Assembly: GCA_963681505.1 (NCBI GenBank)
Contig: OY811979.1
Location: 6,767,332 to 6,831,331, forward strand
Reading direction: 5' to 3'
DNA from: Eunapius fragilis
Lineage: Eukaryota > Porifera > Demospongiae > Spongillida > Spongillidae
Length of the DNA stretch: 64,000 nt
A program made the translations under genes and the position numbers. Under the pieces are notes generated by a model that had not been told where the DNA came from, ran no database searches, and saw only the letters and a program-made list of their open reading frames with translations. Positions within the stretch are counted from its first letter, which is position 1, and each line of letters begins with the position of its first letter. Positions 18,798-61,771 of this stretch are shown here, one piece after another.

Positions 18798-19457
18798 ATT
18801 TGGTACCGTGGATGCTGCAAGGACAGCATTAGACGTTCACTGATAACACAGTAACTAGGTTGCCCTGTGAACCTTAGCTGAGACACACAATAGGCTGTTC
18901 ACTTCTGCAATGTGAAGGCAAAAATTCCCTGCCCACGATACAAGAATATAAGTAATCCTCTCTGATTCATGTAGCCCCTGCTGAAATATACAACCCTGCC
19001 TGCCCTCCCACCATGGAAGAATGATAAACACACATACACGCATGTTTTATGAGACATGAAGAGTTCAATTTGCCATGCAATCTTGAACATAGGCTACAAC
19101 TACAAACAATCATAAAGGATTTGAAGCAAGAGCGAATAGATTTGTACGAGGTAGTAGATAAATTCAGCAAGCCTTACGTGATAAACGGTGTTTGGAGTGT
19201 GATAAAAGCTATCCTCATTGTATGCTGTACATGATGAAGTTTCTGAACACTATCTATGCTTGTGGCTGTTATGGATGCATTTGCAAAGCTGATTTATCGC
19301 ATACCATTTGTTGTAAACTTTCAGATTTTACTGTGTGTTGATGCAGTACATTCGTGTACTGGTGCACCTTATACGTGTGACAAGTGTGGATTGTTTTTAC
19401 AGAATGTAGACGTTGCTACTCATTCGTGTTAAATGATTTGTGTATTTCTTTTAAGTT

Positions 19458-19793
19458 ATGTCATTTTGTACTTGTCATTTACGAGCAAGTCATGTTGATT
19501 TGAAGTTGTTGGCTGAATTCGATAGTGGTATTCGAGTGAGGGAGAACGTTGGTTTTGACTGGAAAGCTGGTGTTCAGGATGCAGGGTTGTTTTGCAAGTG
19601 TTGTGTTGGGTTAGTTCTGCTGTTAAGTTTGTTAAAAGAAGAGGAGTGGTTGGATCTCTATGCTGATTACAAGGCAGAAAGGTGTTGTAATTGTGACTTG
19701 TTTTACAACAGGAGTGGGGTTGTGATAAAGATTACTGAAGTAGATTGTAAGGTGATAAAGCTGTGTGGTGGTTGCTATGAGCAAGAGTTATAG
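19458..19793 (+). CDS. Cys-rich ORF 1, unknown
   Basis: A 111-codon ORF starting at ATG. It contains paired-Cys motifs (CTC, CKCC, CCNC, CGGC) spaced like a treble-clef or zinc-ribbon module, e.g. AERCCNCDLFYNRSG and KVIKLCGGCYEQEL. Just upstream (about 19330-19433) another open segment reads a C-x2-C segment (YTCDKCGLFL) ending HSC. Not recognised. It could be an exon, or one of several ORFs of a decayed element bounded by the 229-bp repeats. Confidence 0.45.
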   Translation: MSFCTCHLRASHVDLKLLAEFDSGIRVRENVGFDWKAGVQDAGLFCKCCVGLVLLLSLLKEEEWLDLYADYKAERCCNCDLFYNRSGVVIKITEVDCKVIKLCGGCYEQEL

Positions 19794-19813
19794 CCATAAC
19801 TCGTGTCAGTTTT

Positions 19814-20067
19814 GTGAGGATGGATATTGCTAATGGTGGTTTTGCCTTTATAGTTATACTTGTTTATGCGTGGATTACAGTGGTAATAGTGCTTTGGTTG
19901 CTGTGTTTGAATATCAAAGTGCTGGTGAGCAAGTCGTGCATAAGGTTTGTAGTGGTTGTTTTCATCATTGTTGTGTTGTGTACGGCGATTCGGGTGAAGA
20001 AGTTGTTGATAGCTTGGGTGTTTCTTGGAAAAAGTTAAAGCAAGAGCGTTTAGCCACAGAGTTATGA
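19814..20067 (+). CDS. Cys-rich ORF 2, related to ORF 1
   Basis: A frame overlapping this interval encodes VFEYQSAGEQVVHKVCSGCF then HHCCVVYGDSGEEVVDSLGV. The VVHKVCSGCF segment parallels VIKLCGGCY in the preceding ORF, suggesting tandem copies of one zinc-binding module. A one-base frame change relative to the upstream ATG (19820) is required. The function is unknown. Confidence 0.4.
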
Positions 20068-20070
20068 GTA

Positions 20071-20753
20071 ATGTACAACCAGTGGAGGGAGTCTGCCAGG
20101 TGGCGGGATCTACAGACGATATCCGTAGCAAGATCAAGGTATCATTACGGCCCAGATGTATTCCAGAACAAGTTAGAGGGCTTCAAAGACTCAGGCGCAG
20201 AAGAAGAGAGTGTTGGCAGCGCTGTTGATATGGAAGAGGTTTTCACTTCAGAAAAGCACAGGAAGAGCATTCAGAAGGACAGAGGGAGATATTTTATCGA
20301 TAGCAAAGTGGAGGCCTCATCTGATGAATGCGAGTATGGTGAGCAGGTAAGCAGCAAGAGAAGTTGGAGCGTCGTCCTGAACACGACAATGAGGTCATCA
20401 AAAAGCTTGAATCCGCAATCTCAGCCCTATTGGGTTGTTCAGAGGAAATTGAATCTGAGCAGGTGAAGCTTAAGAGCAGTAAAAGCAAGCGTAGCAAAGA
20501 TGGTGAGCAAAGCGGAAAGAAGACTAGAAAGAGAAATAGCAGTGGTGAATCTGACTGTTCTTCCGGAGGTGAGCATTATGTAAGGCAACACTGTGGAAAC
20601 TCCATAGCACACTGCAAGAGACTGCAAGATACGCACTTTCACCTCAACACATTTGACAGTTCAGATGCACACTTCCTTTTTCAGACCATAATTAGAAAAA
20701 TGGAGAGGCATATTTACACAAAGCCAGTGGATTTACAGTGTTTGAAAGGATAA
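20071..20753 (+). CDS. Charged C-terminal ORFs of the same unknown gene
   Basis: Two overlapping open frames. The first (ATG 20071) encodes a hydrophilic protein with VARSRYHYGPDVFQNKLEGF and continues to about 20346, where GAGCAG is followed by a possible GTAAGC donor. The second, about 20355-20753, encodes EKLERRPEHDNEVIKKLESA and a Lys/Ser-rich nuclear-localisation-like stretch (KSKRSKDGEQSGKKTRKRNS), ending with a stop. A small intron or a frameshift could join them. No family is recognised. Confidence 0.4.
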
Positions 20754-21325
20754 AGGCATTAAAGAAGGAACACACAAAGCCATCACTGTACAGGAGCTTA
20801 CAATATATATATGCCAATATATAATTTCTTTGTACATAAGTTCTTGTATGTGTTTGTGCATGTATGAAACCATACAGTATCTCATACATCATCAATCTAA
20901 AGTCTGTTCCCATTATGCCGCCCACCTACATGTAGAATAATAACTATCCTGTAGCCTGACCTTATTGACATGAAGCATTACTCTTTGCACATATGCATGG
21001 ATGCTTCAAAATGGTACATTGCCTGCTGTGGTTTGAATATTGAAGGTGTGTGTACAAAAACACACCTATGCTGGCTACAAACAGATAGTCATTCACCGGA
21101 ATGGCTTTGAAAACTTTGACCTGATTAACTCAGCGCCATGTTGCCCACTCTATCACATGACCTTTGCCCTAATCAAGCCAGGATTCAGCAACTACTGACA
21201 CCAGATATGAAGCAAATACAGATCCAAACACCGTGTTATGCATCAACTCAAATTTTTATTTACATGTACATGTATTTAGTTTTTTTTTGGGGGGGGGGGG
21301 GGGGGGAGGCAAGCATGGGTGCCTG

Positions 21326-21554
21326 TCATATCAAACTCACCGCAGAAAATGATGATGTGTTTGTGGGAACTTTATTTTTGGTAACCACATTGTTGGCTGC
21401 TGCAGGAGGCTTTAGTTATGAAAACCTATGAACAATTATCCATAAGTTCATTGACAATCATTTTAAACAGGTTTTGCTTTATTTCTCAACCCAGCTAGGA
21501 TTAGCATTGACTGGCTGCTACTTCTGTGATAAGGTTGCATGTTCCAAAATTACA
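21326..21554. repeat. 229-bp direct repeat, right copy
   Basis: Second copy of 18569-18797. It is preceded by an 18-G run (21289-21306) after a T run, perhaps an insertion scar. Confidence 0.92.
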
Positions 21555-22959
21555 TACTATAGGCCAACATAATTGTAATACTTTGCAATTCTATTGTATC
21601 AACTGCAGAAAGCTACTCATCACTGTGTAGTGAAGCAAGAGCTTATTAGCCAGAAGTACTTGTCACTTTTCAGAAGTGCCATAACATATATGACAAAACA
21701 CTGTCTCTGATGAAGAAATAGAGCAGCTGGGTAAGACAATGGCACATGGGCTTTGGATATTTGGGTGAGCAGGGAGTTGAAAGCACCCACCATTACTTCA
21801 ATGACCTTGAAAGGACGTACATGTACTATGGAGTAAGAGATCCTGCTTAAAAACAACAATTGATGCTGAAAAAACACACTAATGCATACTGCTCCATCAA
21901 ATGTTGCTGCAAGGCCAGAGACAAAGCAATGCAAACAAAATTGACGTATGGTGTAGCCCATATGTTTGTATGAACCGTGCTTCTTGTACCTGATGTTTAC
22001 GATAATGTAAAAGAAAGAGATAAAACCCTCTGAACACATCAATCCTGCCATCTGATTGTATCTTTAAAATCTGTAGTTGTCTCATTCGACAAAACTGCAC
22101 GTGTCATACTACAGGATGACTGATGGTTCGGTATGAGCATAAATAACCACTGGAATGCATTGCCTAAATAAATATGACATCACTATGCATGACTGGAACT
22201 TTTAAAACCCAGGGTTTCTATTCAAAAGGCTGTAATAGGTTGAAGATCTGTCGTTAACTATGTCTGTTGTTAAGGGGCATTCATTATTTTTATAACACGG
22301 TGCACATGTAGTAAATGTCCAATGCTTCTATAGAGCCTAACAGCATGACATGTACCTTGGCCACTGCAATAAATAGTGGGTTCTCTCTATCACAACTTTG
22401 CCATAACACCTTGTAGAAGTAAGGGATGGTTTTCCCAGCCCAATGCAATGCAATGCAATGCAAAAAATTCTTTGAGTTGAATATAAATGAAAACACTATT
22501 GTTCATGCTCATTAACAATTAGCGCATGCGGCAACTAATTACATTCATACGAAAGCACTTGTACTAACAAAACTTGCTACATGCATTATAAATTACTATT
22601 GTAGATTACACATTGTCCATATCTGACAATCAGCTCATATCATCAGAAGAATAACTACTCTCAGATTGGGAAGAGTCACAGTCCTCTTCAGTTAGTGCTC
22701 GAGGTCTTTATCCCTTAATTTTAATTTCAGCCAACCATAAACTCTGATCTTCTTCATTTGTGCTGCTAATTCTATTACGAGGTGACGACATGCTGGATTG
22801 CTTCAACCAAAAAACTCATTCAGAGCATGTACTACACAGTAATACATAATCTTAGGGCACAAATGGAATAAAGAAACATATTACAAAAGAAGGCCTAAGA
22901 CACACAACGGTGAATGAAGGCACAAAGGAACGGCTCATAGATGTAGAGGATTGTTTAGC
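21555..22959. other. No supported gene
   Basis: AT-rich. A minus-strand stretch (about 22634-22790) reads an acidic Ser-rich fragment (SSQSESSYSSDD) with one internal stop, resembling the acidic N-termini of transposases such as piggyBac, but too short to assign. Confidence 0.5.
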
Positions 22960-22963
22960 GCAA

Positions 22964-23690
22964 GGGTCATTCTCCCTCCTTTCACCCAGCAAATGGACAG
23001 CACCTCTCAGATTTTGGTGCAATTTCTCATATATGATTGTCTTCATATGAGAAGACATTTGACCATTTTTTACTTTAATAACCTTAATGGTTTAGGAGAT
23101 ACACATTGTTGAATAATGATACACTTCACTGATAAGTTCAACTTTCACATGTTTTATTTTGGTTCCCACTTATAGCCTAGTTGCATGTTTCACACCACTC
23201 AAAGATCTTATGAAATGCAATCAAGATACGATATGCATTTTGGTGGGAGGTGAAAGAGTTAAATTATTAATTGGTTTATACTACAGATTTTACAAATACT
23301 GTTAGAAGAAGGTTGAAAATCATTTTTAAAAACCAGTTTGGACACCATATTGAACTTGGTGTTTTTTCAAAATAAAAATGTTGATTATTGATAACCCCTG
23401 AGGACCAGAAATGGTTTTATGTGTGAGCAGCCATTTTGAGTTGATTTAGCAGAAAGTGTGGCTAAGTGGATTACATAACATTCAAACCTCAGCAATCAAA
23501 AGTTCAATGATGAATGAAATTAACTGTTATGAAATTAACTGTTACTTACGTAAACCATAATATAATTTTTACATGAGTGCGTGTGTGCGCATGCATGTGA
23601 CAGCTGTGGACTCGGTAACAAAGGACCATTCATGGGGGTTTTTAACGTGGTTCAACGTCAGCAGGAACTTTAGCTCATTAGCCATGTAAC
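22964..23690. repeat. Left terminal inverted repeat
   Basis: About 610 bp (to about 23575) are nearly identical to the reverse complement of 26614-27223. A more diverged inner part runs to about 23690 (AGCAGGAACTTTAGCTCATT). A second, related subterminal unit follows (about 23700-23830), so the inner arm is built from tandem imperfect copies. Confidence 0.92.
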
Positions 23691-23837
23691 TGTTACTTTG
23701 TTACCCGCATACGCGCGTTATCAAAGGCATGCATGGGACAGATGTGTACTCTGTCACAAACGGACCATTCATGGGGTTAGTATTGGTCAAAGCAGGAACT
23801 GTAGTGTACTTAAACTCATTATCACATCCGTATTCTG

Positions 23838-23845
23838 TATATAAG
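23838..23845 (+). promoter_or_regulatory. Candidate TATA box of transposase
   Basis: TATATAAG lies 45 bp before the ATG at 23890, between the left inverted repeat and the ORF. Its position fits a short 5' leader. Confidence 0.45.
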
Positions 23846-23889
23846 CATGATGCAAGTTTTTTGGAACATTGTTTTTTGTAACTGGAACT

Positions 23890-26262
23890 ATGTCTATCAA
23901 CTGGAAGGTTTATTGTTGCGACCCATTTCGCTCTCATCGACGTCGTATATATGCCCACTTGCGTGTGGTACCCGAAGCAATCATTGCAGCGCATCCATCT
24001 CTTTCAATACATAGTGGAGATCACGCATGCTGCAATTGTCTAAACAAGCTACTTAAACTTTCACCTGTAGCTACTGTGCAAGATGAAGAGCATGCAGATC
24101 AGCCTGGACCTTCAGGATTATCACATCACATTAGTCCTTGCAGTGAGCCCTCAGCTGCTGATGCAGACGATGTGCTGCCTGCTGATGTTCAACTTCTTGC
24201 TGTCAATGAAGTGCTTGAATTAGAAGAAATTTCTCCAGTGGGTGGGAAAAGAAGGACACGAAGTTACAAGTATGTTAAAGAAAAGGTAAGGAGAGTAGAG
24301 GATGTGATCAGAAAGAAAGTATTGTTTGCTGTTGGAGCTGGTGACAAGATGCCGCAAGATGATGGAAGGGAAATGATTCAACAGCTCAAAGAAAAATACG
24401 CTTCAACAACATCCAGGAGTGAAAGACTGACAATTTTAACTGCTCTGCCAAAAAGTTGGTCTGTAGGCAAAATCATGGATGAATTTGGTGTCACAAATCA
24501 TATGGCTAAGAGTGCTAAGAAGCTGGTTGAAGACAAAGGAGTATTGAGTTCCCCAAATTCCAATGCTGGAAAGCCACTTCCAGAAAGCACCTTGGAACTA
24601 GTAAGGAAATTCTACTGTCATGATGACATCAGCCGGGTGATGCCAGGAAAAAAGGATTTTGTGTCAGTAAGAAATGCGGATGGAATAAAAGTGCACCAAC
24701 AGAAGAGGCTTGTGCTGTGCAATCTCAGGGAAGCCTACCATCAGTTTAAAATACTGCATCCAGATGTCAAAATAGGCTTCTCTACATTTGCGCAACTGCG
24801 ACCAAAGGAATGTGTGTTGGCTGGTTCCAGTGGTACCCATTCGGTATGTGTGTGTGTAGTGCACCAAAATGCCAAGTTGATGATGACAGGAGGCAGACTG
24901 GAGGCACTCACCCAAGGAGAGTTCAAACACTACAGTGATTGTTTGGCTTTCATACAGTGTGAACCTCCAACAGCTGACTGTGCCAACGGGATTTGTGAGG
25001 AATGTCGGGGAACAGAACCACTGTTAGAGGAGCTCCGGGCTGTCATGGAAGAAAATGCAGTTGACACTGTGCAGTACAGTCAGTGGATAAACACAGATCG
25101 TGCCAACCTTGAAACTCATGTTGTACCCATTGAAGACTTTCTCAATTTGTTTATGGAAGTGTTGAAGAAGCTGAGATTGCACGACTTCATAGCTAAGAAG
25201 CAAGCTGCATTCTTGAGTGAGAAAAAGGAGTCTCTCACACATGGAGAATTTCTTGTCATTGCTGACTTCTCTGAGAACTACAGTTTTGTTGTTCAGGATG
25301 AAGTCCAATCCTTTCATTGGAACAACTTACAAGCAACTGTTCATCCATTCCTTTGTTACTATCGAGAGGTAAATGGCAAGCTAAATAGTATCTGTTTTAC
25401 TGTTATTTCAGAAAACAAAGATCATGATACGATAGCTGTACACTTGTTCCAGCGAAAGTTAGTACAGTTTCTGACAGGCCATTTTGAGTCAAAGCCTAAA
25501 AAGATAGTCTACATGTCGGATGGTTGTGCTGGTCAGTATAAGAACTGTTATAATTTCACAAATCTGTGTCATCATGAAGTAGACTTTGGAGTTCCAGCAG
25601 AGTGGCACTTCTTTGCTACCTCGCATGGAAAGTCAGCTGCAGATGGTATTGGGGGAACTGTGAAAAGGACTGCAGCCAAGGCCAGTCTGCAGCGTCCTAA
25701 AGAAGACCAGATTCTGACACCTACCCAACTGTATCAGTTTGTATCATCCGAGATCAAAGGCATACACTTTGCATTTGCAACATTAAGAGAGCATGAGGAG
25801 GAGGCAAGGCTGCTGTCAGACAGGTACAAATCCAGTAGAACTGTTCCTGGAACACGGTCACAGCACTGTGTTGTACCCATTTCAAAGAGTAGTGTTGAAA
25901 TCAAGCAGTTTTCTTCAAGTTGCATTAAAAGAATTGAGAGAGTGTCTACTGCTTGTATCATTAAGACCCTCCCACTGTCATCCATAAAAGGTTATGTTAC
26001 TGCAATCTATGATGGACACTGTTGGCTTGGGATTGTTATGAAGGTGGATATGGAAGCACGACTCATAGAAGTTAATTTCCTTCACCCAAAACTACCTGCA
26101 AAATCTTATGTTTATCCACGTCACCAGGACATAATGGAGATTGACCCGTCAGATATACTTACACTAGTTAATCCTTCAACAGCTACAGGACGCACTTACT
26201 CCTTAACAAGTAAGGAAATCACAACAGCAACCTGTGCTCTGGAGGCAAGAACATCTGCTTAG
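23890..26262 (+). CDS. Transposase-like protein, 790 aa, intact
   Basis: The first ATG of the long frame is at 23890. The N-terminus has a Cys/His cluster (YCCDPFRSHRR, then HACCNC near residue 50), a likely zinc-binding module. A low-complexity linker and a helix-rich segment follow (KSWSVGKIMDEFGVTNHMAK, about 189-208, HTH-like). A second Cys cluster (CEPPTADCANGICEEC) lies near 357-372. The putative RNase-H-fold core has IADFSENYSF (D459), YMSDGCAGQYKNC (D544) and EWHFFATSHGKSAADGIGG (571-589) as candidate catalytic blocks. The C-terminal region (CWLGIVMKVD) resembles a small beta-barrel. Similar uncharacterised proteins are, as I recall, widespread in cnidarians and sponges. Position inside inverted repeats supports a transposase role; the catalytic assignment is inference. 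Confidence 0.8.
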   Translation: MSINWKVYCCDPFRSHRRRIYAHLRVVPEAIIAAHPSLSIHSGDHACCNCLNKLLKLSPVATVQDEEHADQPGPSGLSHHISPCSEPSAADADDVLPADVQLLAVNEVLELEEISPVGGKRRTRSYKYVKEKVRRVEDVIRKKVLFAVGAGDKMPQDDGREMIQQLKEKYASTTSRSERLTILTALPKSWSVGKIMDEFGVTNHMAKSAKKLVEDKGVLSSPNSNAGKPLPESTLELVRKFYCHDDISRVMPGKKDFVSVRNADGIKVHQQKRLVLCNLREAYHQFKILHPDVKIGFSTFAQLRPKECVLAGSSGTHSVCVCVVHQNAKLMMTGGRLEALTQGEFKHYSDCLAFIQCEPPTADCANGICEECRGTEPLLEELRAVMEENAVDTVQYSQWINTDRANLETHVVPIEDFLNLFMEVLKKLRLHDFIAKKQAAFLSEKKESLTHGEFLVIADFSENYSFVVQDEVQSFHWNNLQATVHPFLCYYREVNGKLNSICFTVISENKDHDTIAVHLFQRKLVQFLTGHFESKPKKIVYMSDGCAGQYKNCYNFTNLCHHEVDFGVPAEWHFFATSHGKSAADGIGGTVKRTAAKASLQRPKEDQILTPTQLYQFVSSEIKGIHFAFATLREHEEEARLLSDRYKSSRTVPGTRSQHCVVPISKSSVEIKQFSSSCIKRIERVSTACIIKTLPLSSIKGYVTAIYDGHCWLGIVMKVDMEARLIEVNFLHPKLPAKSYVYPRHQDIMEIDPSDILTLVNPSTATGRTYSLTSKEITTATCALEARTSA

Positions 26263-26516
26263 TATTAGGCTGTTTAAAGTAGTAACTATTATAAAATGCA
26301 TATATATACTGTTTTCATCACACATGACAGTGTATACCAAATGACCTGTCTTTTAATTCCCAATACATATTTGAGATACAGATACATGCCTGATGAGCTA
26401 AAGTTCCTGTTGACTCTTTGAACACCGTGAAAAAAACCCATGAAGGGTCTTTTTGTGACATGTACACATGCATACGTGCACTCTTAAATATACTGACATA
26501 TATGTGTGTGTACATT

Positions 26517-27223
26517 GTACCAGCAGATGGCTAATGAGCTAAAGTTCCTGCTGACATTGCTTTGTGACAGAGTCCACAGCTGTCAATACATGTGCACACA
26601 CGCACTCATATATATAATTATATTATGGTTTACGTAAGTAACAGTTAATTTCATAACAGTTAATTTCATTCATCATTGAACTTTTGATTGCTGAGGTTTG
26701 AATGTTATGTAATCCACTTAGCCACACTTTCTGCTAAATCAACTCAAAATGGCTGCTCACACATAAAACCATTTCTGGTCCTCAGGGGTTATCAATAATC
26801 AACATTTTTATTTTGAAAAAACACCAAGTTCAATATGGTGTCCAAACTGGTTTTTAAAAAGTGGTGATTTTCAACCTTCTTCTAACAGTATTTGTAAAAT
26901 CTGTAGTATAAACCAATTAATAATTTAACTCTTTCACCTCCCACCAAAATGCATATCGTATCTTGATTGCACTTCATAAGATCTTTGAGTGGTGTGAAAC
27001 ATGCAACTAGGCTATAAGTGGGAACCAAAATAAAACATGTGAAAGTTGAACTTATCAGTGAAGTGTATCATTATTCAACAATGTGTATCTCCTAAACCAT
27101 TAAGGTTATTAAAGTAAAAAATGGTCAAATGTCTTCTCATATGAAGACAATCATATATGAGAAATTGCACCAAAATCTGAGAGGTGCTGTCCATTTGCTG
27201 GGTGAAAGGAGGGAGAATGACCC
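26517..27223. repeat. Right terminal inverted repeat
   Basis: Reverse complement of the left arm. The outer 610 bp are nearly identical and the inner part diverges. Another imperfect unit (GATGAGCTAAAGTTCCTG) occurs at about 26392, mirroring the tandem structure of the left side. The TIR ends GGGAGAATGACCC and is followed by GCAA. Confidence 0.92.
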
Positions 27224-27384
27224 GCAATGAATCCTTATCTACAATAAACGCTAAGCAAACTATGGTTCACAGTTAGTTTAGAAAGTTGTTATTATTTACA
27301 CAAGGAAAGATGGCACCAGTATCGAGGCAAAAACGTTAGGATTCTACTTTTAAACAATATGCAAGCAGTGAACAAGATTTTTTT

Positions 27385-27820
27385 GCATTTAGAGGTATGG
27401 TCATTTAGAGGTATGGTCATTTAGAGGTATGGTCATTTAGAGGGAACGTGATAAGGCTGTCTCAAGCCCCGCCCTGTGCTGGGAGGGAGGTGCCTTCCTC
27501 CTCAGGGAGGTGTGGGCCAATAGAGGCCCACAACGAGGTGGACATCTGGGGGTTAAGGGAGCATTGTAATACATCAAAAATTACAATAAATGTGGACCAC
27601 AGCTTAGAGGGAGCTGTGGTGACATGCAGGGGTCATTTAGAGGTATGGTCATTTAGAGGTATGATCATTTAGAGGTATGGTTATTTAGAGGTATGGTCAT
27701 TTAGAGGTATGGTCATTTAGAGGTATGGTCATTTAGAGGTATGGTCATTTAGAGGTATGGTCATTTAGAGGTATGGTCATTTAGAGGTATGGTCATTTAG
27801 AGGTATGGTTGCATATGCAA
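27385..27820. repeat. 16-bp minisatellite in two blocks
   Basis: The unit GGTATGGTCATTTAGA is repeated about 3 times at 27390-27440 and about 12 times at 27630-27815, with a unique GC-richer segment between. One unit reads ATGATC and another ATGGTT. Confidence 0.93.
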
Positions 27821-29010
27821 TCAAAATATGATTTTTGTTTTTGGATGCGGTACTAAATAATAGTGAAATTGGAAACTAAAATATAAAGTACTCCCAATAC
27901 ACTTGAATATATTTACATAGATTTGAGTGGCATAAGAGGTTCATTTTTACAGCATTCATAGCTGACGTGTTTTACAACATAGAGGTATGTTTGGCATGAA
28001 TTTAACGATATTCATTATGAAGCCATATACTTTTACTTCCTCGATGCTTCGTGGACTTTAGTGTGATTCATAAGGTAGCAATGGGGCATTTGAAGTCACT
28101 ATACTGAGTACATGTACAGGTGTTCAATGTGTATCACAGTTGATCATGTTTTGTCATCGGTTTTATGTAAATCGAATGTATTTTTTGTCAGACCTACTTT
28201 TTAAAAATTTGTCAGAAAATGTGTGTTTAAGTTGAAATATACATATTCCAATTGTCCAACTCTTTCTGTGACGATTGATGCTATTTTGGTAGTACACTAC
28301 TAGCCTGAGCCCAGCAGCTGAGCACCATGAGGCAGTCTGCAACACAACTGTGTTATTGCGCACTGGTGAAGCCTGATTCTCGGGTTCCATACTACTGTGT
28401 ACCTGGCATACATGTTATGCAGCTCTGTACATTACAACTGATGGTAAGCAGGAGACTCAGTTCTTCCACAGCAGAATGTACCATCAGTCTCTGTTCACAT
28501 TCCTTCATGCCATGCCTGCTCACTGAGTACCCCTATGGGTTCAGAAGACATAAACTTCACTGGAGTTACTGTGTTATTGAGCAGTGATGTGAGCTGCTGC
28601 AGCAAAAAGTAGTTAGACTAAGTGAACTGCCACTTGCCAGGAAGATCAGAGCAGTGTACCAGAGCATTGGCAGGAGGCCACAAGCTCCACGTGCTACTGA
28701 TTGCAAGGTAGTGATGTACATGTATGAACCTCAAGGCAAAAGAAAGCCAAGGTAACCTATGAGCAGCTGGTTTAGAGTAAAACTTGTCCCAGTGGAAAAA
28801 GCAGGAATTGGAGGCCTATCTTGACCACCACCAAATTGTGAACTCTATAGCGTTTTTCAGGACATACATTTATGCATGCACACGACAATTGTATTGTTGT
28901 ATCAATCCATAAGATCAATATTACGAGGAACAAAATAAAAACGAGCAATCAATTAATTACGTGTCATCAATGTTATATATTTAGGTCTGGATCAAGGTTA
29001 ATGCAGCTTA
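27821..29010. other. No supported gene
   Basis: AT-rich. ORFs at 28163-28390 and 28327-28587 overlap on opposite strands and show no domain. Confidence 0.55.
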
Positions 29011-29013
29011 TAA

Positions 29014-29225
29014 CTACTTAGTACAGCTGGTTCCAATGCTTCCATATAAGTAAAGAGTTGTAAAATATACTTTCATTAGTATGTGCGAGCGACTGACAAT
29101 CAGTTGTTGAAAAGGAAGAAGGCCAGAAGGATGGAAGAACTGCACTTTTATCTCATCATTATCACAAGTCTCCGTGACTAAAGCTAGCCACCACAAGGAG
29201 TTATACTCACATGAATTGATTGTCA
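29014..29225 (-). pseudogene. Possible C-terminal relic of a related transposase
   Basis: The minus strand reads WWLALVTETCDNDEIKVQFF followed by HPSG. This parallels CWLGIVMKVDMEARLIEVNF followed by HPK in the C-terminal domain of the intact transposase. It stands alone without the catalytic core and ends in sequence with no further similarity. The spacing of W, L, V and HP is shared, but identity is low. Confidence 0.4.
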
Positions 29226-29239
29226 GTTGCTTGCACATC

Positions 29240-30400
29240 CTAATGAAAGTTAGCGCGAATACATTGACAGGAAGAGTCTATAAAATTTCTCATGAAGATA
29301 CACTAGAAGCAACGCGTTTGCTACACGAGTTTTGCTACAGTACCACTTAGAACCTGTCGTTGTGGTTACTGTGTAAACTGCAACAGGATGAATATGTTAT
29401 GTGGTGAAGGCTACCTTCATAGCCTATGACAAGTTGGTGTTTACCTACTATTTTAGTTAATAACTCTTTAAAATCTAGATTGCCACGCAGGCATTTTGCG
29501 GCGCGCTGTTATACAACTATCGTAGATGATTTATATGCAATATCATTTTATTCTAAATATATACTTTTTGGCTAATTCAAATGGAAGATATTCATCTTGT
29601 TCTAGCTATAATTACCGTATTAACGATCAAGCGCTCGACTTATATGTGAGCTTGCGGTCTCCTTATGGTCCAAATGTGCGGGTCTACATAGTACTTCACA
29701 ATTGTAACGGCTACGGGAGTTATAGATGGGAACGCCCCCGTGAATAAGTACTGTTATTACAAAACATCAAAACATGGAGTCCGCGTAATTCAAAAGCCTG
29801 GGGATGTAATAATTGAACTATATGTATAGGTATATGAGGTCAGTAGTTGGGTAAATTGAAGAGGGTCATACTTTTTGTTGTTTGACTTAGACATGGCTAT
29901 ACTCTAATAGGAAACATGACTTCAAAGCATGTCTTCAGCCATCTAAGCATACAAGTACAGGTACATCTTTATAATGTGCAAGAGCAGCCTGGGGTAGAAC
30001 ACAGTGCTTTGATTTTTTTCAGTTAGGGGTTGGAAATTTCATATCCTTGGCACACTTTGTGAAGTCTACCCAGAGCAAATGGTACAATACTCAGACAGAT
30101 AGATATACATGTATTCCAGGTACATTTTACATGAGTATGTGTTATGAGTGAGATTAGACCTTTTGACAGCCCTGGAGGGGGGAATCCATCATATGGAGAA
30201 GCAGGTGTGTTGTACATATAATTGTACATCAGGCAAGGGTGACTCAAAGTCATGCAAAATCTTCGAATTGATACATGTATAATTCTCCAGAACTGATTGT
30301 TGAAAGTATGCTATTTAAACCTATATCATTGTCCACCCAAGTATTTACAATGTCCGATCTAATTGGCATGTGGTCAGTAATGAGAGCATTCTCTTGTACG
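29240..30400. other. No supported gene
   Basis: Short ORFs only (for example 29526-29747), with no recognisable domain or convincing splice structure. Confidence 0.55.
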
Positions 30401-32204
30401 TTCTGAAAGTGCGAAGTAGGTTGCAAGCCATTCATGAGAGAATTAGTGAACGAAAATTGCAAGGTAGCTCAAGCCCAGCAAAAGAAATGGTACGACCAAA
30501 ACTGCCGACATCGCGAGTTTGAAGAAGGTGATCATGTGTTGGTATTGTTACCAACTGTCGAAAAGAAATTAATGGCTAGGTGGGAAGGACCCTACTTGGT
30601 CAAGAGGAGTTACCCCGGTCACTTACCAGATCGACATGAGCGACAGGAAGAAACGCTACCGTACTTTCCACGTAAACATGATGAAGGCGTGGAATTGCCC
30701 AACAACGTGCAGTGTGTCATGGGCCGACTCCTGTGAGGGAGAGGAAGGTGGAGAGTCCGAGGAGATATGTCTGTGGGAAAGGAATGATCAGGGTGATGTC
30801 AAGATAAAAATGGGAGAAAAGCTGTCAAGTGGCCAAAGGAGTGAGTTGAAAGCAGTAGTGAAAAGGAGTTTCACGAAGTCATGAACAATGTTCCAGGCAG
30901 GACCGAGTTGGCAGTACACCACATCGAAACGGGGCAGCAAACCCCATTAAGTTACCGCCATATCGGTTGCCGTATGCGTATCGCGACAAAGAAATTGAGG
31001 AGATGCTCAAGTACGGCGTGATAGAGCCTTCTGACAGTTCATGGGCATCACCAATGGTCGTGGTAAAAAAGGACGAGTCTCTGAGATTATGCGTTGACTA
31101 CGGAACATTAAATAGCATCACCAAAACAGATGTCTACCCAATGCCTCGGGTGGATGAACTGGTGGACAGGCTTGGTCAGGCCAAACTTATAACAACATTA
31201 GACCTATCAAAGGGCTACTGGCAGGTCCCTGTTGCCAAGGAGGATAGGCTAAAAGACAGCCTTCTCCACATCTAAAGGCTTCTATCAATTTACAGTCATG
31301 CCCTTTGGTTTGCAGGGAGCTCCAGCAACCTTCCAACAAATGATGGACAAAGTGATCAAGGGCTTGGAAGAGTTTGCTGCGGCGTACCTGGATGATTTGG
31401 TGATTTACAGCACCACATGGATGGATCACATCAGACACCTTCGCAAACTGCTGCAAAGGCTAAGGGAGGCCAAGCTGACTGTGAAAGTGAATAAATGCCA
31501 GTTTGCGATGTCGCAGTGTACATATCTCGGGCATGTGGTCGGCAGTGGAGTAGTGCGGCCAGAGAATTCTAAAGTGGAAGCAATTCGCAACTTCCCAGTA
31601 CCACGGAGCAAGAAAGCCGTAAGAGAGTTCCTAGGCCTAGCTGGGTACTACAGAAGGTTCATACCCGACTTCACCCCTGTAGCAGCCCCGCTAACAGATT
31701 TAACGCGGAAGACAGCGCCGAACGAAGTTGTGTGGAGTGAGCGATGCCGAAAAGCATTCGACAAACTATAGGAGCAGATGTGCTCTGACCCCGTTGCTTG
31801 TGTGCCCCGACTTTGGAAAGGAGTTCTATCTCCAGACGGACGCTTCTAACCGTGGAGTTGGTGCGGTGTTAAGCCAACTAGATGCCGATGGGCTGGACCA
31901 CCCAGTGGCATTCTACAGTCGGAAGCTGTTACCCCGCGAGGAGAAATACTCTACTATAGAGAAAGAGTGCCTGACGATTTGCCTAGGGGTACAGGCATTC
32001 TGTGTGTATCTCTTGGGGCGACCTTTTACCATACAGACAGACCATAGGTCGCTAGAATGGTTGGAAAGGAATCCAATGGACGCCTCACGAGGTGGAGCCT
32101 GTCTCTTCAACCATTCCAATTCACGGTGTTGTACAGAAAAGGGAGATGCAATGGTAATGCTGATGCATTATCAAGGAGTGCCTATACCGAGGCGACAATA
32201 ATGT
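30400..32204 (+). mobile_element. Gmr1-like Ty3/gypsy element, 5' truncated
   Basis: The order on the plus strand is integrase C-terminal domain (about 30430-30690: KKWYDQN, LMARWEGPYLVKR, FHVNMMKAW), linker, reverse transcriptase (30961-31690: PYRLPYAYRDKE, SLRLCVDYGTLN, LDLSKGYWQVP, FGLQGAPATFQ, AAYLDDLVIYS) and RNase H (31810-32204: LQTDASNRGVGAVLSQ, DHRSLEWLER, GNADALSR). Integrase upstream of reverse transcriptase is the hallmark of the Gmr1-like clade rather than ordinary gypsy. Protease and the integrase core are missing at the 5' side. Frame changes near 30740-30960, 31250, 31770 and 32090 make it inactive. Confidence 0.88.
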
Positions 32205-32497: not shown

Positions 32498-33034
32498 TCC
32501 CTCACATACCTACCCAGCATAAGTGGTCAGACTATCATGGCACAATACATGTGTTCTAAAAAACACTAAGCAAACATTACCTGTACTTCATTGTGACCGC
32601 TAACTTTTAATAACATTTTGCGGTTTGTATGGAAATAAAAATAAAACAAGACCAGCTAATGCTGTAACAAGGCACTGGGTACCAAAACTAGCTGGCTACG
32701 TGCTGTAAACAGGCATGGTATCAAGAGATACTTAAAATGCTGCAAGAAGGCACAACAAGCTACTAGCTTGAAGTACGATCAGTGTGTACACCAGGACCAC
32801 CACACACGACTTACAGCTAAGCAGTGGGTTTTCGTTGTACAGTTCTCTTATCGTGCCCTCCCCTAGTGGGCGGGAAAATATTACCACGAGTGCTACAATT
32901 AGAATAACATACGTTGTATGAAGGCTGTATGATCGTGATGGGTAACCCGGTGATGGTCGGTCATCATCTTCGGTTCGTCTTTAAAGCCACTGCATGCTCG
33001 CCGTGCTGACTTTAAAAAATTACACATTTACATG
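32498..33034. repeat. Direct repeat R1
   Basis: Shares long blocks with 33990-34613 in the same orientation: AGTGGTCAGACTATC to AATAAAACAAG, and AGCTACTAGCTTGAAGTACG to ACACATTTACATGT. R1 lacks an internal segment of about 110 bp present in R2. The two bracket the minisatellite at 33035-33490 and about 500 bp more. Confidence 0.88.
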
Positions 33035-33490
33035 TACCCACTGTAAGCAGCTGGCCCCCCTACCCCCATGTACCTACTGTAAGCAACTGGACCCCCTGCC
33101 CCCATGTACCCACTGTAAGCAACTGGACCCCCTGCCCCCATGTACTCACTGTAAGCAGCTAGACCCCCCTGCCCCCATGTACCCACTGTAAGTAACTGGC
33201 CCCCCTTGCCCCCATGTACCCACTGTAAGCAACTGGACCCCTTGCCCCCAAGTACCCACTGCAAAAGCAGCTAGACCCCCCTGCCCCCATGTACCCACTG
33301 TAAGCAACTGGCCCCCTTGCCCCCATGTACCCACTGTAAGCAGCTAGACCCCTTGCCCCCATGTACCCACTGTAAGCAGCTAGACCCCCCTTGCCCCCGT
33401 GTACCCACTGTAAGCAACTGGCTCCCCTGCCCCCATGTACCCACTGTAAGCAGCTAGACCCCCTTGCCCCCATGCACCTACTGTAAGCAC
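33035..33490. repeat. Minisatellite, inverted relative to 4145-4800
   Basis: About 12 units of 36-39 bp containing TGCCCCCATGTACCCACTG and GTAAGCAACTGGACC or GTAAGCAGCTAGACC. It is the reverse complement of the array at 4.1 kb. ORFs through it on both strands are repeat artefacts. Confidence 0.93.
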
Positions 33491-36621: not shown

Positions 36622-36742
36622 CTGGTGATGGAGAAATAACACGTAACCATTAATAACCAGCAATAACTCTTCTTACCACAGCTATCCAGGATATCATAAG
36701 ATGGTGGGCAGTGTTGTTGGGGGTAAACACTGATACCATCTG

Positions 36743-37333
36743 TACACCCATGGGAGGGAGGACCACTATGGAGAGATAGGTACATGTAGCTAAGGACACT
36801 AAGTACACCCATAGGAGGGAGGACCACTGTGGAGAGATAGGTACATGTAGCTAAGGACACTAAGTACACCCATAGGAGGGAGGACCACTGTGGAGAGATA
36901 GGTACATGTAGCTAAGGACACTAAGTACACCCATGGGAGGGAGGACCACTGTGGAGAGATAGGTACATGTAGCTAAGGACACTAAGTACACCCATAGGAG
37001 GGAGGACCACTGTGGAGAGATAGGTACATGTAGCTAAGGACACTAAGTACACCCATAGGAGGGAGGACCACTGTGGAGAGATAGGTACATGTAGCTAAGG
37101 ACACTAAGTACACCCATAGGAGGGAGGACCACTGTGGAGAGATAGGTACATGTAGCTAAGGACACTAAGTACACCCATAGGAGGGAGGACCACTGTGGAG
37201 AGATAGGTACATGTAGCTAAGGACACTAAGTACACCCATAGGAGGGAGGACCACTGTGGAGAGATAGGTACATGTAGCTAAGGACACTAAGTACACCCAT
37301 AGGAGGGAGGACCACTGTGGAGAGATAGGTACA
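36743..37333. repeat. Minisatellite, 61-bp unit, about 10 copies
   Basis: Highly homogeneous head-to-tail copies containing GGAGGGAGGACCACTGTGGA and GGTACATGTAGCTAAGGACA. A few copies read CCATGGG instead of CCATAGG. A (GGTGG)n-like G-rich tract follows (37335-37430). Confidence 0.96.
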
Positions 37334-37659
37334 TGTGGTGGGGTGGATGGTGTGTGGGTGGTGGGGTGGGTGGTGGGGTGGGGGTGGGCGGGAGGGTGGG
37401 CGGGAGGGTGGTGGGGGTGGGGGTGGTGGACACTGTGCAAGGCTGAGACTATCTGAACTATATGGCTAGTAAAGCCACACCCCTGTGACTACCTTCTGAC
37501 AATGTGTATGCAATATAAAGTAATGTTCAGTCTGCACATGGAAAACCAATTTGGTGCTGATACCTACAGTCCACATGGATATGTAGTGAACTGTTAGCAC
37601 TTTGGTTAACATGGATTGTTCAGCACTTACATGTTCTATTAGAGGTTGACTTCACATTG

Positions 37660-38447: not shown

Positions 38448-38583
38448 AGCCATGAGAGGAAACCTTGGTAGGGGGACTTGGGGGTTAGCCATGAGAGGAT
38501 ACCTAGGTAGGGGGACTTGTGGTTAGCCATGAGAGGATACCTAAGTAGAGGGACTTGGGGGTTAGCCATGAGAGGATACCTAG
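38448..38583. repeat. Tandem repeat, about 39-41 bp, 4 copies
   Basis: Units contain AGCCATGAGAGGATACCTAG and GTAGGGGGACTTGGGGGTT. Confidence 0.9.
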
Positions 38584-38586
38584 GAG

Positions 38587-39302
38587 GTGGTGTACCAGTG
38601 AGGAGAAAGAGGGGGTGGTGTACCAGTGAGGAGAGGGAGGGGTGGTGTACCAGTGATGAGAGGGAGGGGATGGTGTACCAGTGATGAGAGGGAGGGGATG
38701 GTGTACTAGTGAGGAGAGGAAGGGGATGGTGTACCAGTGATGAGAGGGAAAGGGTGGTGTACCAGTGAGGAGAGGGTGGTGTACCAGTGAGGAGAGGGAG
38801 GGGGTGTGGTATCAGTGAGGAGAGGGAGGGGATGGTGTACCAGTGAGGAGAGGGAGAGGTGGTGTTCCAGTGAGGAGAGGGAGGGGATGGTGTACCAGTG
38901 AGGAGAGGGAGGGGTGGTGTACCAGTGAGGAGAGGGAGGGGATGGTGTACCAGTGAGGAGAGGGAGGGGTGGTGTACCAGTGAGGAGAGGGAGGGGGTGG
39001 GGTACCAGTGAGGAGGGGAGGAGGTGGTGTACCAGTGAGGAGAAAGAGGGGGTGGTGTACCAGTGAGGAGAGGGAGGGGATGGTGTACCAGTGAGGAGAG
39101 GGAGGGGGTGGGGTACCAGTGAGGAGAGGGAGGGGATGGTGTACCAGTGAGGAGAGGGAGGGGGTGGTGTACCAGTGAGGAGAGGGAGGGTGAGGTGTAC
39201 CAGTGAGGGAGGGAGGGGGTGGTGTGCCAGTGAGGAGAGGGAGGGGGTGGTGTACCAGTAAGGAGAGGGAGGGGTGGCGGGGTGGTGTACCAGTGAGGAG
39301 AG
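38587..39302. repeat. Minisatellite, 26-30 bp unit, about 25 copies
   Basis: Units are GTGTACCAGTGAGGAGAGGG plus a variable G-rich spacer (AGGGGGTG, AGGGGATG). It directly follows the preceding tandem repeat. Purine/pyrimidine strand bias is strong. Confidence 0.95.
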
Positions 39303-40307: not shown

Positions 40308-40686
40308 AATAACCAGTGGGTGTGTGCCATAGGTCACCTACCAGGGGTATATGCCAAAGGTCACCTACCAGGGGTGTGTGCCATAGGTCACCTACCAGGG
40401 GTATATGCCAAAGGTCACCTACCAGGGGTGTGTGCCATAGGTCACCTACCAGGGGTATATGCCAAAGGTCACCTACCAGGGGTGTGTGCCATAGGTCACC
40501 TACCAGGGGTATATGCCAAAGGTCACCTACCAGGGGTGTGTGCCATAGGTCACCTACCAGGGTGTGTGTGCCAAAGGTCACCTACCAGAGGTGTATGCCA
40601 TAGGTCACCTATCTGGTAGGGGTATATGCCAAAGGTCACCTACCAGGGGTGTATGCCATAGGTCACCTATCTGGTAGGGGTATATG
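40308..40686. repeat. Minisatellite with 54-bp higher-order unit
   Basis: Alternating 27-bp subunits TGCCATAGGTCACCTACCAG and TGCCAAAGGTCACCTACCAG, distinguished by GTGTG versus TATA upstream. Both strands stay open because 27 is a multiple of three; these ORFs are artefacts. Confidence 0.95.
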
Positions 40687-59252: not shown

Positions 59253-61771
59253 TCAGGCTGGAGTTTTATACCACCCTCCTGCTTTAACAACAAAGGAGTT
59301 TGATGCGCCATCATGCTCCGTCATCATGCTGACCCGAGAGAGTGCATTTCAGGGGCGGATCCAGAATTTTTTTGCGAGGGGGGGCAAAGGGGAGGGGCGT
59401 TAATAATCATGGTTGGAGCGTGGCTACGAAATATTGTGCGTAAGAGAGGAAGATGTACCCGGGGTCTGGGGCTTTGCCCCAGCCGCTTTTTACTGTTATC
59501 ATGTTACTTCGGCGCGTTTTCGTTGTATTTGCATCATCAGGGCGACGTAAGACACCGCCCCTTGTAGCTATGAATATTTAATTTCTAACTTGGGGGGGGG
59601 GCAAAACCCAGTTTCCCCCCCCCCCCCCCCCCTGTATCCGCCACTGCATTTCCATTACTGAGGCCAGCTCTGTGCACCACTGAGTAGTTGAAGGGCCAGA
59701 CTACATCGAGTTAGTCGGGAGTTGCTTTCCTTCAGCTTCTTTAGCCACACCAGTGATCGGTGGTCCGTCTCCACGGTGAACTTCCGGCCTAGGAGATATA
59801 CTCGGAACGTCTCCATGCCCAGCTTGATGGCTAGACACTCCTTCTCGACCGTGGAGTACCGTACTTCCTGAGGGAGTAGCTTCCTACTGAAATAAGCAAT
59901 AGGGTGATCACAACCCAGAGCATTCCGTTGGCTTAACACTGTGGTCATGCATGTCAATCATATAGTCCACACTGCTCACCTGTTCTAGAGCTTCATACGG
60001 CCCTTGCCACTGAGCGAGCAGCTTGATTGTGGACGAAGGAAGTAGGACCAACACCTTGCTGCCAACTTTCAGCTCTCTGTACCGGGCGTTCTGGTCGTAC
60101 CACTTCTTCTGTATTGTCCATCACAAGCTCCTTCATCGCCTCCATTCTGTCCTGAATCGTCAGGATGTGTGACATGACGCTCTCCGAACTCTTCTCCTTT
60201 CCTTCTTACATCTCCTTCAGCACGTCTAACGGTCCCCTCGGTGCATGTCCATACAACAGCTCGAAAGGCAAGAATCCCGTGGAGCTCTGGGGTACCTTGC
60301 AATATGTGAAAAGTACGTACGGTAGTAGCTGGTCCCAGTCCTTGCCCTTTTCGACTGCTGTCTTACTTAGCATCATCTTCAGGGTTCGGTTGAACCGCTC
60401 TACGAGGCCGTCTGTCTGTGGGTGGTAAGGGCTTGTGCGAATATGGCGTATGTGTAACAAACGATACAGCTCTTGTAACAGCATTGACGTAAAGTTAGTG
60501 CCCTGATCTGTCAGGATCTCCTTGGGAATTCCTACCCTTGCGAACAGTGTCACCAACCCGTTCAGCTTCCACGCTCCGCATGGCCATCGCCTCTGGATAC
60601 TGGGTGGCATAGTCGCACACCACCAAGACATACCGATTTCCACGACTGCTCCTGGGTAGTGGCCCCACTATGTCCATAGCTATACGTTCGAATGGCACAG
60701 AAATCACGGGGAGTGGAACCAGTGATACCCTGCAGACTTTTCCTCTGGACAGCTTCTGGCATTCTGCGCAGCCCTTGCAGTAGCTTGCCACATCGCGGTG
60801 CACCCCTGGCCAGTGGAACCTTTGCAGTATATGCGGTCCGCCGTTTTACGCTTCCCCATGCAGATGGCCAGCTGTAGGACACTGTGTGCAAGATTTAACA
60901 CAGCCTTACGAAATTTCTTGGGTAGAACTAGCTGTTCCTCGGCCAAGTCTTCACCCGCTCCACCAGCTGCATGTTTTCTTCTGTGGTACAGCAATCCATC
61001 TTTCTTGAAATAGTTGCTTGACCGGTCATCCTCCGCCCCAGAAACAGCTTTTCTAACGGCTACAAGCGTTGGGTCCGCTTCCTGGGATGCTCTAAGTTCC
61101 TCTGCCGATGACCCAAGGACATCATCCGTTTCGGGCCTCTGCTGCCCAGCGGTGTCAAGCTCCAGTTCTGCCGTTTGGAGGTTCCTTCTCCCTCTACGCT
61201 TTTGTTGTCTGGTCTGCTTCGGTCTTGAGTAGCCCCCTTCAAAAATGCAGTCATCCATCTCGTTCCACAAGTCCCAAACTTCCCCTTCTGTGCTCGTAGA
61301 ACTGCTCTCCACCGCCACTGGATTTGGGCTGACCACACTCTTCTGTTCGTTCGAGCGCTCCTCCTGCTCCTTGCTCACCTTGGCTGCTTCCTTGGCTCTT
61401 GTAGTCACCATGTACGCCCGCTGTTCACCTGGGGAAGTGGTCCTCGGAGCTATCTTCATTCCAAGTAATTTACCCAGTTCGCTGACGTCAGTGCCCAATA
61501 GTATCGATGTGGGTAGAGTATCCGACACGGCAGCGACCGCTTGAATGTAGCGTCCCTCCAACTCAATCCTAACATTGCACAACAGGTACAATGCAGAGTC
61601 ACCATGCACACATCTCACCACCATGCCATCCCCTTCCAGCAGCTGGTCCTTCTTGTAATAGTCGCCCCAGAAACGGTTTCCCTGACCGCGGCTACAAGCG
61701 TTGGGTCCTCTTCCTGGGATGCTCTAAGTTCCTCTGCCGATGACCCAAGGACATAATCCACGGATTATTGA
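59253..61771 (-). mobile_element. Gmr1-like Ty3/gypsy element lacking reverse transcriptase
   Basis: In minus-strand order: duplicated linker fragment (61640-61771), protease C-terminal half (about 61430-61660, ILLGTDVSELGKLLG; no DTG), linker, integrase zinc-binding region (about 60740-60970, LPKKFRKAV ... CKGCAECQK), integrase core (60206-60700: FERIAMDIVGPLP, ILTDQGTNF, SPYHPQTDGLVERFNR, matching D,D,E), integrase C-terminus (about 59950-60120, KKWYDQNARYRELKVG, LAQWQGPYEA), and then directly RNase H (59640-59945, DHPIAYFSRKLLPQE, TDHRSLVWL). The RNase H end is split by a MITE and resumes at 59253-59345. Integrase before RNase H with the reverse transcriptase deleted supports the Gmr1-like gene order. 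It is inactive. Confidence 0.88.
59345..59651. mobile_element. MITE with CAGGGGC termini, inside gypsy element
   Basis: Insertion 59350-59646 starts CAGGGGCGGATCCAG and ends TATCCGCCACTG, flanked by CATTT (59345-59349 and 59647-59651). Excision joins the RNase H frame from NGNA to LSRV. It shares the palindrome GGCTTTGCCCC and end sequences with the MITE at 16085-16823, in the opposite orientation. Confidence 0.85.

Follow-up and report, generated by a model that had tools for sequence, protein, structure and literature searches.

What kind of DNA forms the 4,260-bp element at positions 22964-27223 of this 64-kb stretch of Eunapius fragilis contig OY811979.1 (hereafter the window), which a first-pass annotation had taken for an intact, probably recently active DNA transposon of an unclassified family? 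We conclude, with a probability of about 0.92, that it is an intact autonomous cut-and-paste DNA transposon with a proposed DDD (three-aspartate) transposase mechanism. The first part of the annotation is borne out by an empty insertion site, by 4-bp target-site duplications (TSDs) at every one of the 18 sites whose tips are intact, by an unbroken open reading frame (ORF) and by a predicted RNase-H-like fold. The features of the element, in window coordinates, are as follows.

22960-22963, no strand: left TSD, GCAA; present as a single GCAA at the empty paralogous site (L064).
22964-23567, plus strand: left terminal inverted repeat (TIR), 604 bp, starting GGGTCATTCTCCC; from arm-versus-arm alignment and other genomic copies.
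23590-23835, plus strand: two subterminal repeats with a spacing of about 138 bp, containing GGACCATTCATGGG; from repeat comparison and motif counts.
23890-26262, plus strand: ORF in one frame, 790 residues, predicted DDD transposase (P0001); from translation, relatives and conservation.
23914-24039, plus strand: N-terminal Cys/His cluster C9-H16-C47-C50, probable zinc site; from conservation.
24958-25005, plus strand: second Cys cluster C357-C364-C369-C372, probable zinc site; from conservation.
25228-25761, plus strand: predicted RNase-H-like catalytic core, residues about 447-624, with D459, D544 and D585; from an AlphaFold2 model, structural matches to integrases and conservation.
26370-26620, minus strand: two right-end subterminal repeats, inverted relative to the left-end pair; from repeat comparison.
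26616-27223, minus strand: right TIR, 608 bp, ending GGGAGAATGACCC; from arm-versus-arm alignment.
27224-27227, no strand: right TSD, GCAA; from flank comparison and the empty site L064.

The outer limits of the element and its duplications agree to the base with those first annotated, and the nearly identical arms of 0.6-0.7 kb and the 790-residue ORF are likewise as described. The two arms are 100% complementary over 359 + 245 bp, their sole difference being a single 4-bp indel (four additional bases at 26861-26864 of the right arm), and similarity between them extends to about 650 bp (98.3% across 651 columns). The ORF runs from the ATG at 23890 to a stop ending at 26262 without an internal stop, and appears as 797 residues in the ORF list when counted from an upstream TTG. 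Each element end also carries two subterminal repeats, inverted between the ends; three of these four repeats contain a box of the CATTCATGG or CTTCATGG type, similar to the tip GGGTCATTC, as is the left-end box GGACCATTCATGGG; the outer right-end repeat has no CATTC box. The relaxed motif GGNYCATTC occurs four times in the element, versus a mean of 0.21 in 500 mononucleotide shuffles. Among eight other elements, this motif is missing from two (L014 and L024), confined to the tips in four (L020, L023, L036 and L043), and also subterminal in only two (L041 and L056); because the box is subterminal in just these two, we put forward the box-bearing repeats as a suggestion for candidate transposase-binding sites.

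Insertion of the element can be read from paralogous sequence on the same contig (C9), where the 3,961-bp left flank recurs at C9:6725485 (100% identity) and C9:5981239 (98%). The former belongs to a near-identical duplicate that lies approximately 61 kb upstream and likewise bears the element; it has 6,201 bp at 99.9% identity to the window stretch and a right flank of 6,641 bp at 100%. The duplicated extent is about 19000-31500 of the window versus C9:6725485-6737989, and it reflects either a segmental duplication of recent date or a duplication introduced by the assembly. The latter paralog (L064) has no element at the insertion point. Compared directly across 301 bases around the join, it has a single GCAA and 286 of 292 columns identical, which therefore establishes the insertion and provides the unduplicated site that the first-pass annotation had proposed to look for. 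An older paralog on C10 is likewise empty (214 of 254 columns identical around the join), its site reading GCGA. Given that the element is present in the near-identical duplicate and absent from the 98% paralog, it was inserted after the split of that paralog and before the recent duplication. The right-flank match in the empty C9 paralog resumes only at C9:5990207, as the interval C9:5985431-5990206, between a satellite and the right flank, is about 4.3 kb longer than its counterpart in the window; no element-arm or protein match falls within this extra sequence in our two genome searches, both of which give lower bounds.

The satellite region to the right of the element contains a 16-bp tandem repeat (CATTTAGAGGTATGGT / GGTCATTTAGAGGTAT) at 27386-27443 and 27631-27809, which has GGTCATT in common with the transposon tip. 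The start of this array is also found in the empty paralog L064, and the array is therefore older than the insertion.

Searches of the 219-Mb genome (24 contigs) recovered further copies with the same termini, as anticipated in the first annotation, with at least 46 matches to the left arm (40 of 121 candidates scored) and at least 71 matches to the protein (57 of 656 candidates scored). Among the fetched loci, each of the 18 distinct sites with intact paired GGGTCATT...AATGACC[C/T] tips has identical 4-bp flanks, namely GCAA, TGTA, GGAG, TAGC, GGAG, AACA, ACGT, GTTA, TACT, AGAC, CCTA, TGTC, CTAT, GCCC, ACAT, TAGT, AGCT and TATT; inspection by eye reveals no target consensus among them. These sites include full-length elements of several subfamilies as well as short derivatives of 808-1,519 bp with the same ends. 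When two-ended copies are counted irrespective of tip integrity, TSDs are found in 18 of 21, the remaining three (L042, L025 and L028), whose arms both end within the sequence fetched, having neither an intact tip nor matching 4-bp flanks. The underlying tip-pair scan comprises 24 rows, of which 23 are outer ends of the 18 distinct sites, with repeat fetches and the segmental duplicate merged, and one is an internal pair in L056 whose flanks do not match. Mirror-placed internal motif pairs in L012, L013, L025, L028, L051 and L052 are not element ends. Left out of the TSD count are L049, L050, L057 and L058, with just one recognized end; copies with arms beyond the fetched stretch, among L012, L013, L026, L030-L035 and L037; and L016, L017, L019 and L029, for which no inverted repeat was recovered. 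A broken relative is present in five copies (L030-L034, on C3, C6, C9, C12 and C3), which have arms that are 99-99.6% alike, share neighbouring bases and represent either separate insertions or a portion of a larger repeated unit.

These data bear on the possibility that a host gene flanked by an inverted segmental duplication, and not a mobile element, accounts for the locus. Segmental duplications do exist at the locus, but the exact empty site and the 4-bp TSD refute this explanation, and the scattered copies, each with its own TSD, are also at odds with it; we regard it as having next to no chance of being correct.

The protein encoded by the element has at least 575 relatives at E <= 0.001 (7,995 candidates sharing most words scored), and at least 669 relatives are obtained with a distant family member as the query. 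Among the matches listed, the best named relatives belong to Ephydatia muelleri, a freshwater sponge, with up to 83% identity, and another relative shows 97% identity across 60% of the protein; named relatives in this set include those from Ephydatia, the hagfish Myxine, Rotaria, Patella, Araneus and Brassicogethes. Almost all of these named records are called 'hypothetical', 'uncharacterized' or similar, one JGI record bears the name 'transposase', and none of the relatives listed has a precomputed Pfam domain.

Conservation across these relatives extends to both Cys clusters and all three candidate catalytic blocks that had been singled out from the window alone. In a 189-protein alignment, D459 is Asp in 188 of 189 proteins, D544 in all 185 rows with a residue at that position, and D585 in 185 of 187, the other two having Glu. 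The clusters are nearly invariant, with C9, H16, C47 and C50 kept in 146/149, 147/149, 167/168 and 167/168 of the rows with a residue there, and C357, C364, C369 and C372 in 186/187, 188/188, 188/188 and 187/188. The AlphaFold2 model contains the RNase-H-like core that the first annotation had proposed to seek, and retroviral integrases rank first among the structural matches listed. As D585 lies in the helix that follows the fifth core strand of this model, we take it to be the probable third catalytic acid. The predicted core and the three conserved acids point to membership in the RNase-H-fold (DDD/E) transposases, and the protein is most likely a DDD cut-and-paste enzyme. A BFVD fold search gave one match at E <= 0.001, a phage transactivator/viroplasmin, with several RNase H matches below it.

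Sequence profiles, by comparison, returned nothing credible from Pfam for P0001 or the 34 members of alignment A1, from NCBIfam for three proteins, or from the PDB. We read as chance a Phospholip_A2_3 match to P0001 in Pfam (E 0.023; 15.7 bits versus a cut-off of 29.4), the weak matches of the 34 members (40 families at E <= 1, the best 25 inspected), and one sub-threshold ribosomal-protein match in NCBIfam to one of the three proteins. HTH_23 matched five of the 34 members (best E 0.0019), which is compatible with a helix-turn-helix. A scan of viral contigs yielded 42 pattern stretches and one of genome contigs yielded eight, none of them confirmed, although distant prokaryotic relatives may escape the latter scan; Rfam and tRNA searches found none. 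Neither six protein motif strings nor the cc8L18.2 names were found in the literature searched, and a literature search on the terminus and TSD gave nothing related, as judged from titles and abstract openings.

In the mechanism we propose, the 790-residue transposase, which combines two probable zinc-binding clusters with a predicted RNase-H-like core bearing the DDD triad (D459, D544 and D585), would most likely recognize the GGGTCATT tips and long arms, bring the two element ends together and excise the element; the 3' ends would then be joined to target DNA with a 4-bp stagger, and gap repair would produce the 4-bp duplication. End recognition, cleavage chemistry, zinc binding and excision are the steps that we infer. 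This mechanism is nevertheless far more secure than the family name.

The strongest sign of very recent movement comes from sister copies at different sites. L014 and L015 are full-length (3,923 bp) and 100.000% identical, with no similarity found between their flanks, and L021 and L022 are full-length (3,861 bp) and likewise 100.000% identical, with TSDs GGAG and AACA; between L020 and either of the latter two there are five differences (99.87% identity). Because such identical full-length copies occupy different sites, the movement is recent, and these sisters (L014/L015 and L020-L022), which have open ORFs, testify to current movement better than the window copy does. This sign does not extend to the window copy itself: its sole near-identical copy is the segmental duplicate and not a second jump, and its relatives on C4 are approximately 96-97% identical and have frames with stops. 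The annotated recent activity is upheld by an insertion younger than the split from the 98% paralog and by the identical sister copies at different sites. Open frames of 763-846 residues are present at twelve loci, picked among protein-search loci without listed stops. When the window ORF is compared with six sister loci, of which two are identical and two nearly so, the ratio of nonsynonymous to synonymous divergence (dN/dS) is 0.095-0.166 at a dS of 1.5-1.9, which is near saturation, and dS was not computable for four more loci. The window copy may still be active.

With retroviral integrases leading the structural match list, an origin of the element among the integrase-derived Ginger or IS481EU transposons has to be considered. 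Ginger is described with TGTNR ends, CCGG or AT-rich targets, a DDE transposase, an H2C2 finger and TIRs of about 40-270 bp (PMC2836005), and IS481EU with TNT..AYA ends, TIRs mostly <50 bp, TSDs of 4 bp in some families and also of about 15 bp, and a DDD/E transposase related to integrases, reported from parabasalids (PMC10045372). By these descriptions, the sponge element resembles Ginger1 and Ginger2 in its 4-bp TSD, integrase-like RNase-H core and probable zinc site ahead of the core, and resembles some IS481EU families in TSD length and in the kinship of the DDD/E transposase with integrases. It differs from each in the remaining traits listed for that group, including the parabasalid hosts of IS481EU. 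Its ends are GGGTC, neither TGTNR nor TNT, its 604-bp TIR exceeds the lengths given for both groups, CCGG, CCGT and ACGG are all absent from the 18 TSDs, and the third acid is Asp in 185 of 187 rows, not Glu. Moreover, P0001 has no integrase-core match in Pfam at E <= 1, nor is an integrase-core family among the best 25 of the 40 Pfam families matching the 34 members. The terminal signatures and TSDs therefore disfavour both groups, and we consider such an assignment very improbable.

Compared by published description alone, the element is probably to be placed in or next to the Sola superfamily. This superfamily reportedly goes back to Bao et al. in 2009, and the TSD of Sola3 is TTAA, unlike those found here. 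Sola elements are described as having a DDD transposase, a 4-bp TSD, a size of mostly 2-9 kb, TIRs of 11-1,124 bp and metazoans among their hosts (PMC10741241), and Sola1-3 are subgroups of one superfamily in Repbase (PMC4455052). The sponge element matches this description in cut-and-paste movement, TSD length (at all 18 exact-tip sites, 18 of 21 two-ended copies and the empty site), the Asp prevailing at the presumed third acid D585, TIR length (604/608 bp), size (4,260 bp) and animal host, and we lean towards a catalogued branch of Sola (Repbase Sola1/2/3), in which case the class is not new. The likeness is one of description. Sola2 elements of two amoebozoan species are described with AT-rich TSDs and TIRs of 12-21 bp (PMC3627910), whereas the TSDs here are mixed (for example, GCCC, GGAG and AGAC) and the TIRs about 0.5-0.6 kb; AT-richness is given there as a feature of those amoebozoan elements, not of the superfamily.

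The absence of any credible profile or PDB sequence match, the six motif strings not found in the literature searched, and GGGTCATT termini unlike the published Ginger (TGTNR) and IS481EU (TNT..AYA) ends would also suit an undescribed superfamily-level lineage of animal DDD transposons, which we view as possible though unlikely. Still more tentatively, such a superfamily would be marked by GGGTCATT ends, long TIRs and a 4-bp TSD without evident target preference, together with CHCC and CCCC zinc sites and an HGK..DG catalytic block, and would be still moving in freshwater sponges. However, the gross features all fit the Sola description, a missing Pfam model does not demonstrate novelty, and a family so widespread in animals is likely to be in Repbase already. 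No Pfam or NCBIfam family was matched, but the label 'unclassified' is not established given the fit to Sola.

Elsewhere in the window, a 306-residue ORF (60704-61624, minus strand) resembles by eye a fragment of a long terminal repeat retrotransposon polyprotein. Minisatellite arrays lie at 33031-33489 (36/110-bp units), 36742-37336 (61-bp unit, 99% matches over 9.8 copies), 38582-39274 (28-bp unit) and 40312-40669 (27/54-bp units).

As its anatomy fits the published Sola group, the element looks like a good specimen and not a new kind of transposon. Its transposase family is widespread in animals, has no Pfam match and, where the listed records carry a name, is almost always called 'hypothetical', 'uncharacterized' or similar, such that its members are liable to be taken for host genes. 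With an intact copy and with 100%-identical sisters at different sites, this genome makes activity directly testable, and the family could serve as the source of an insertion tool.

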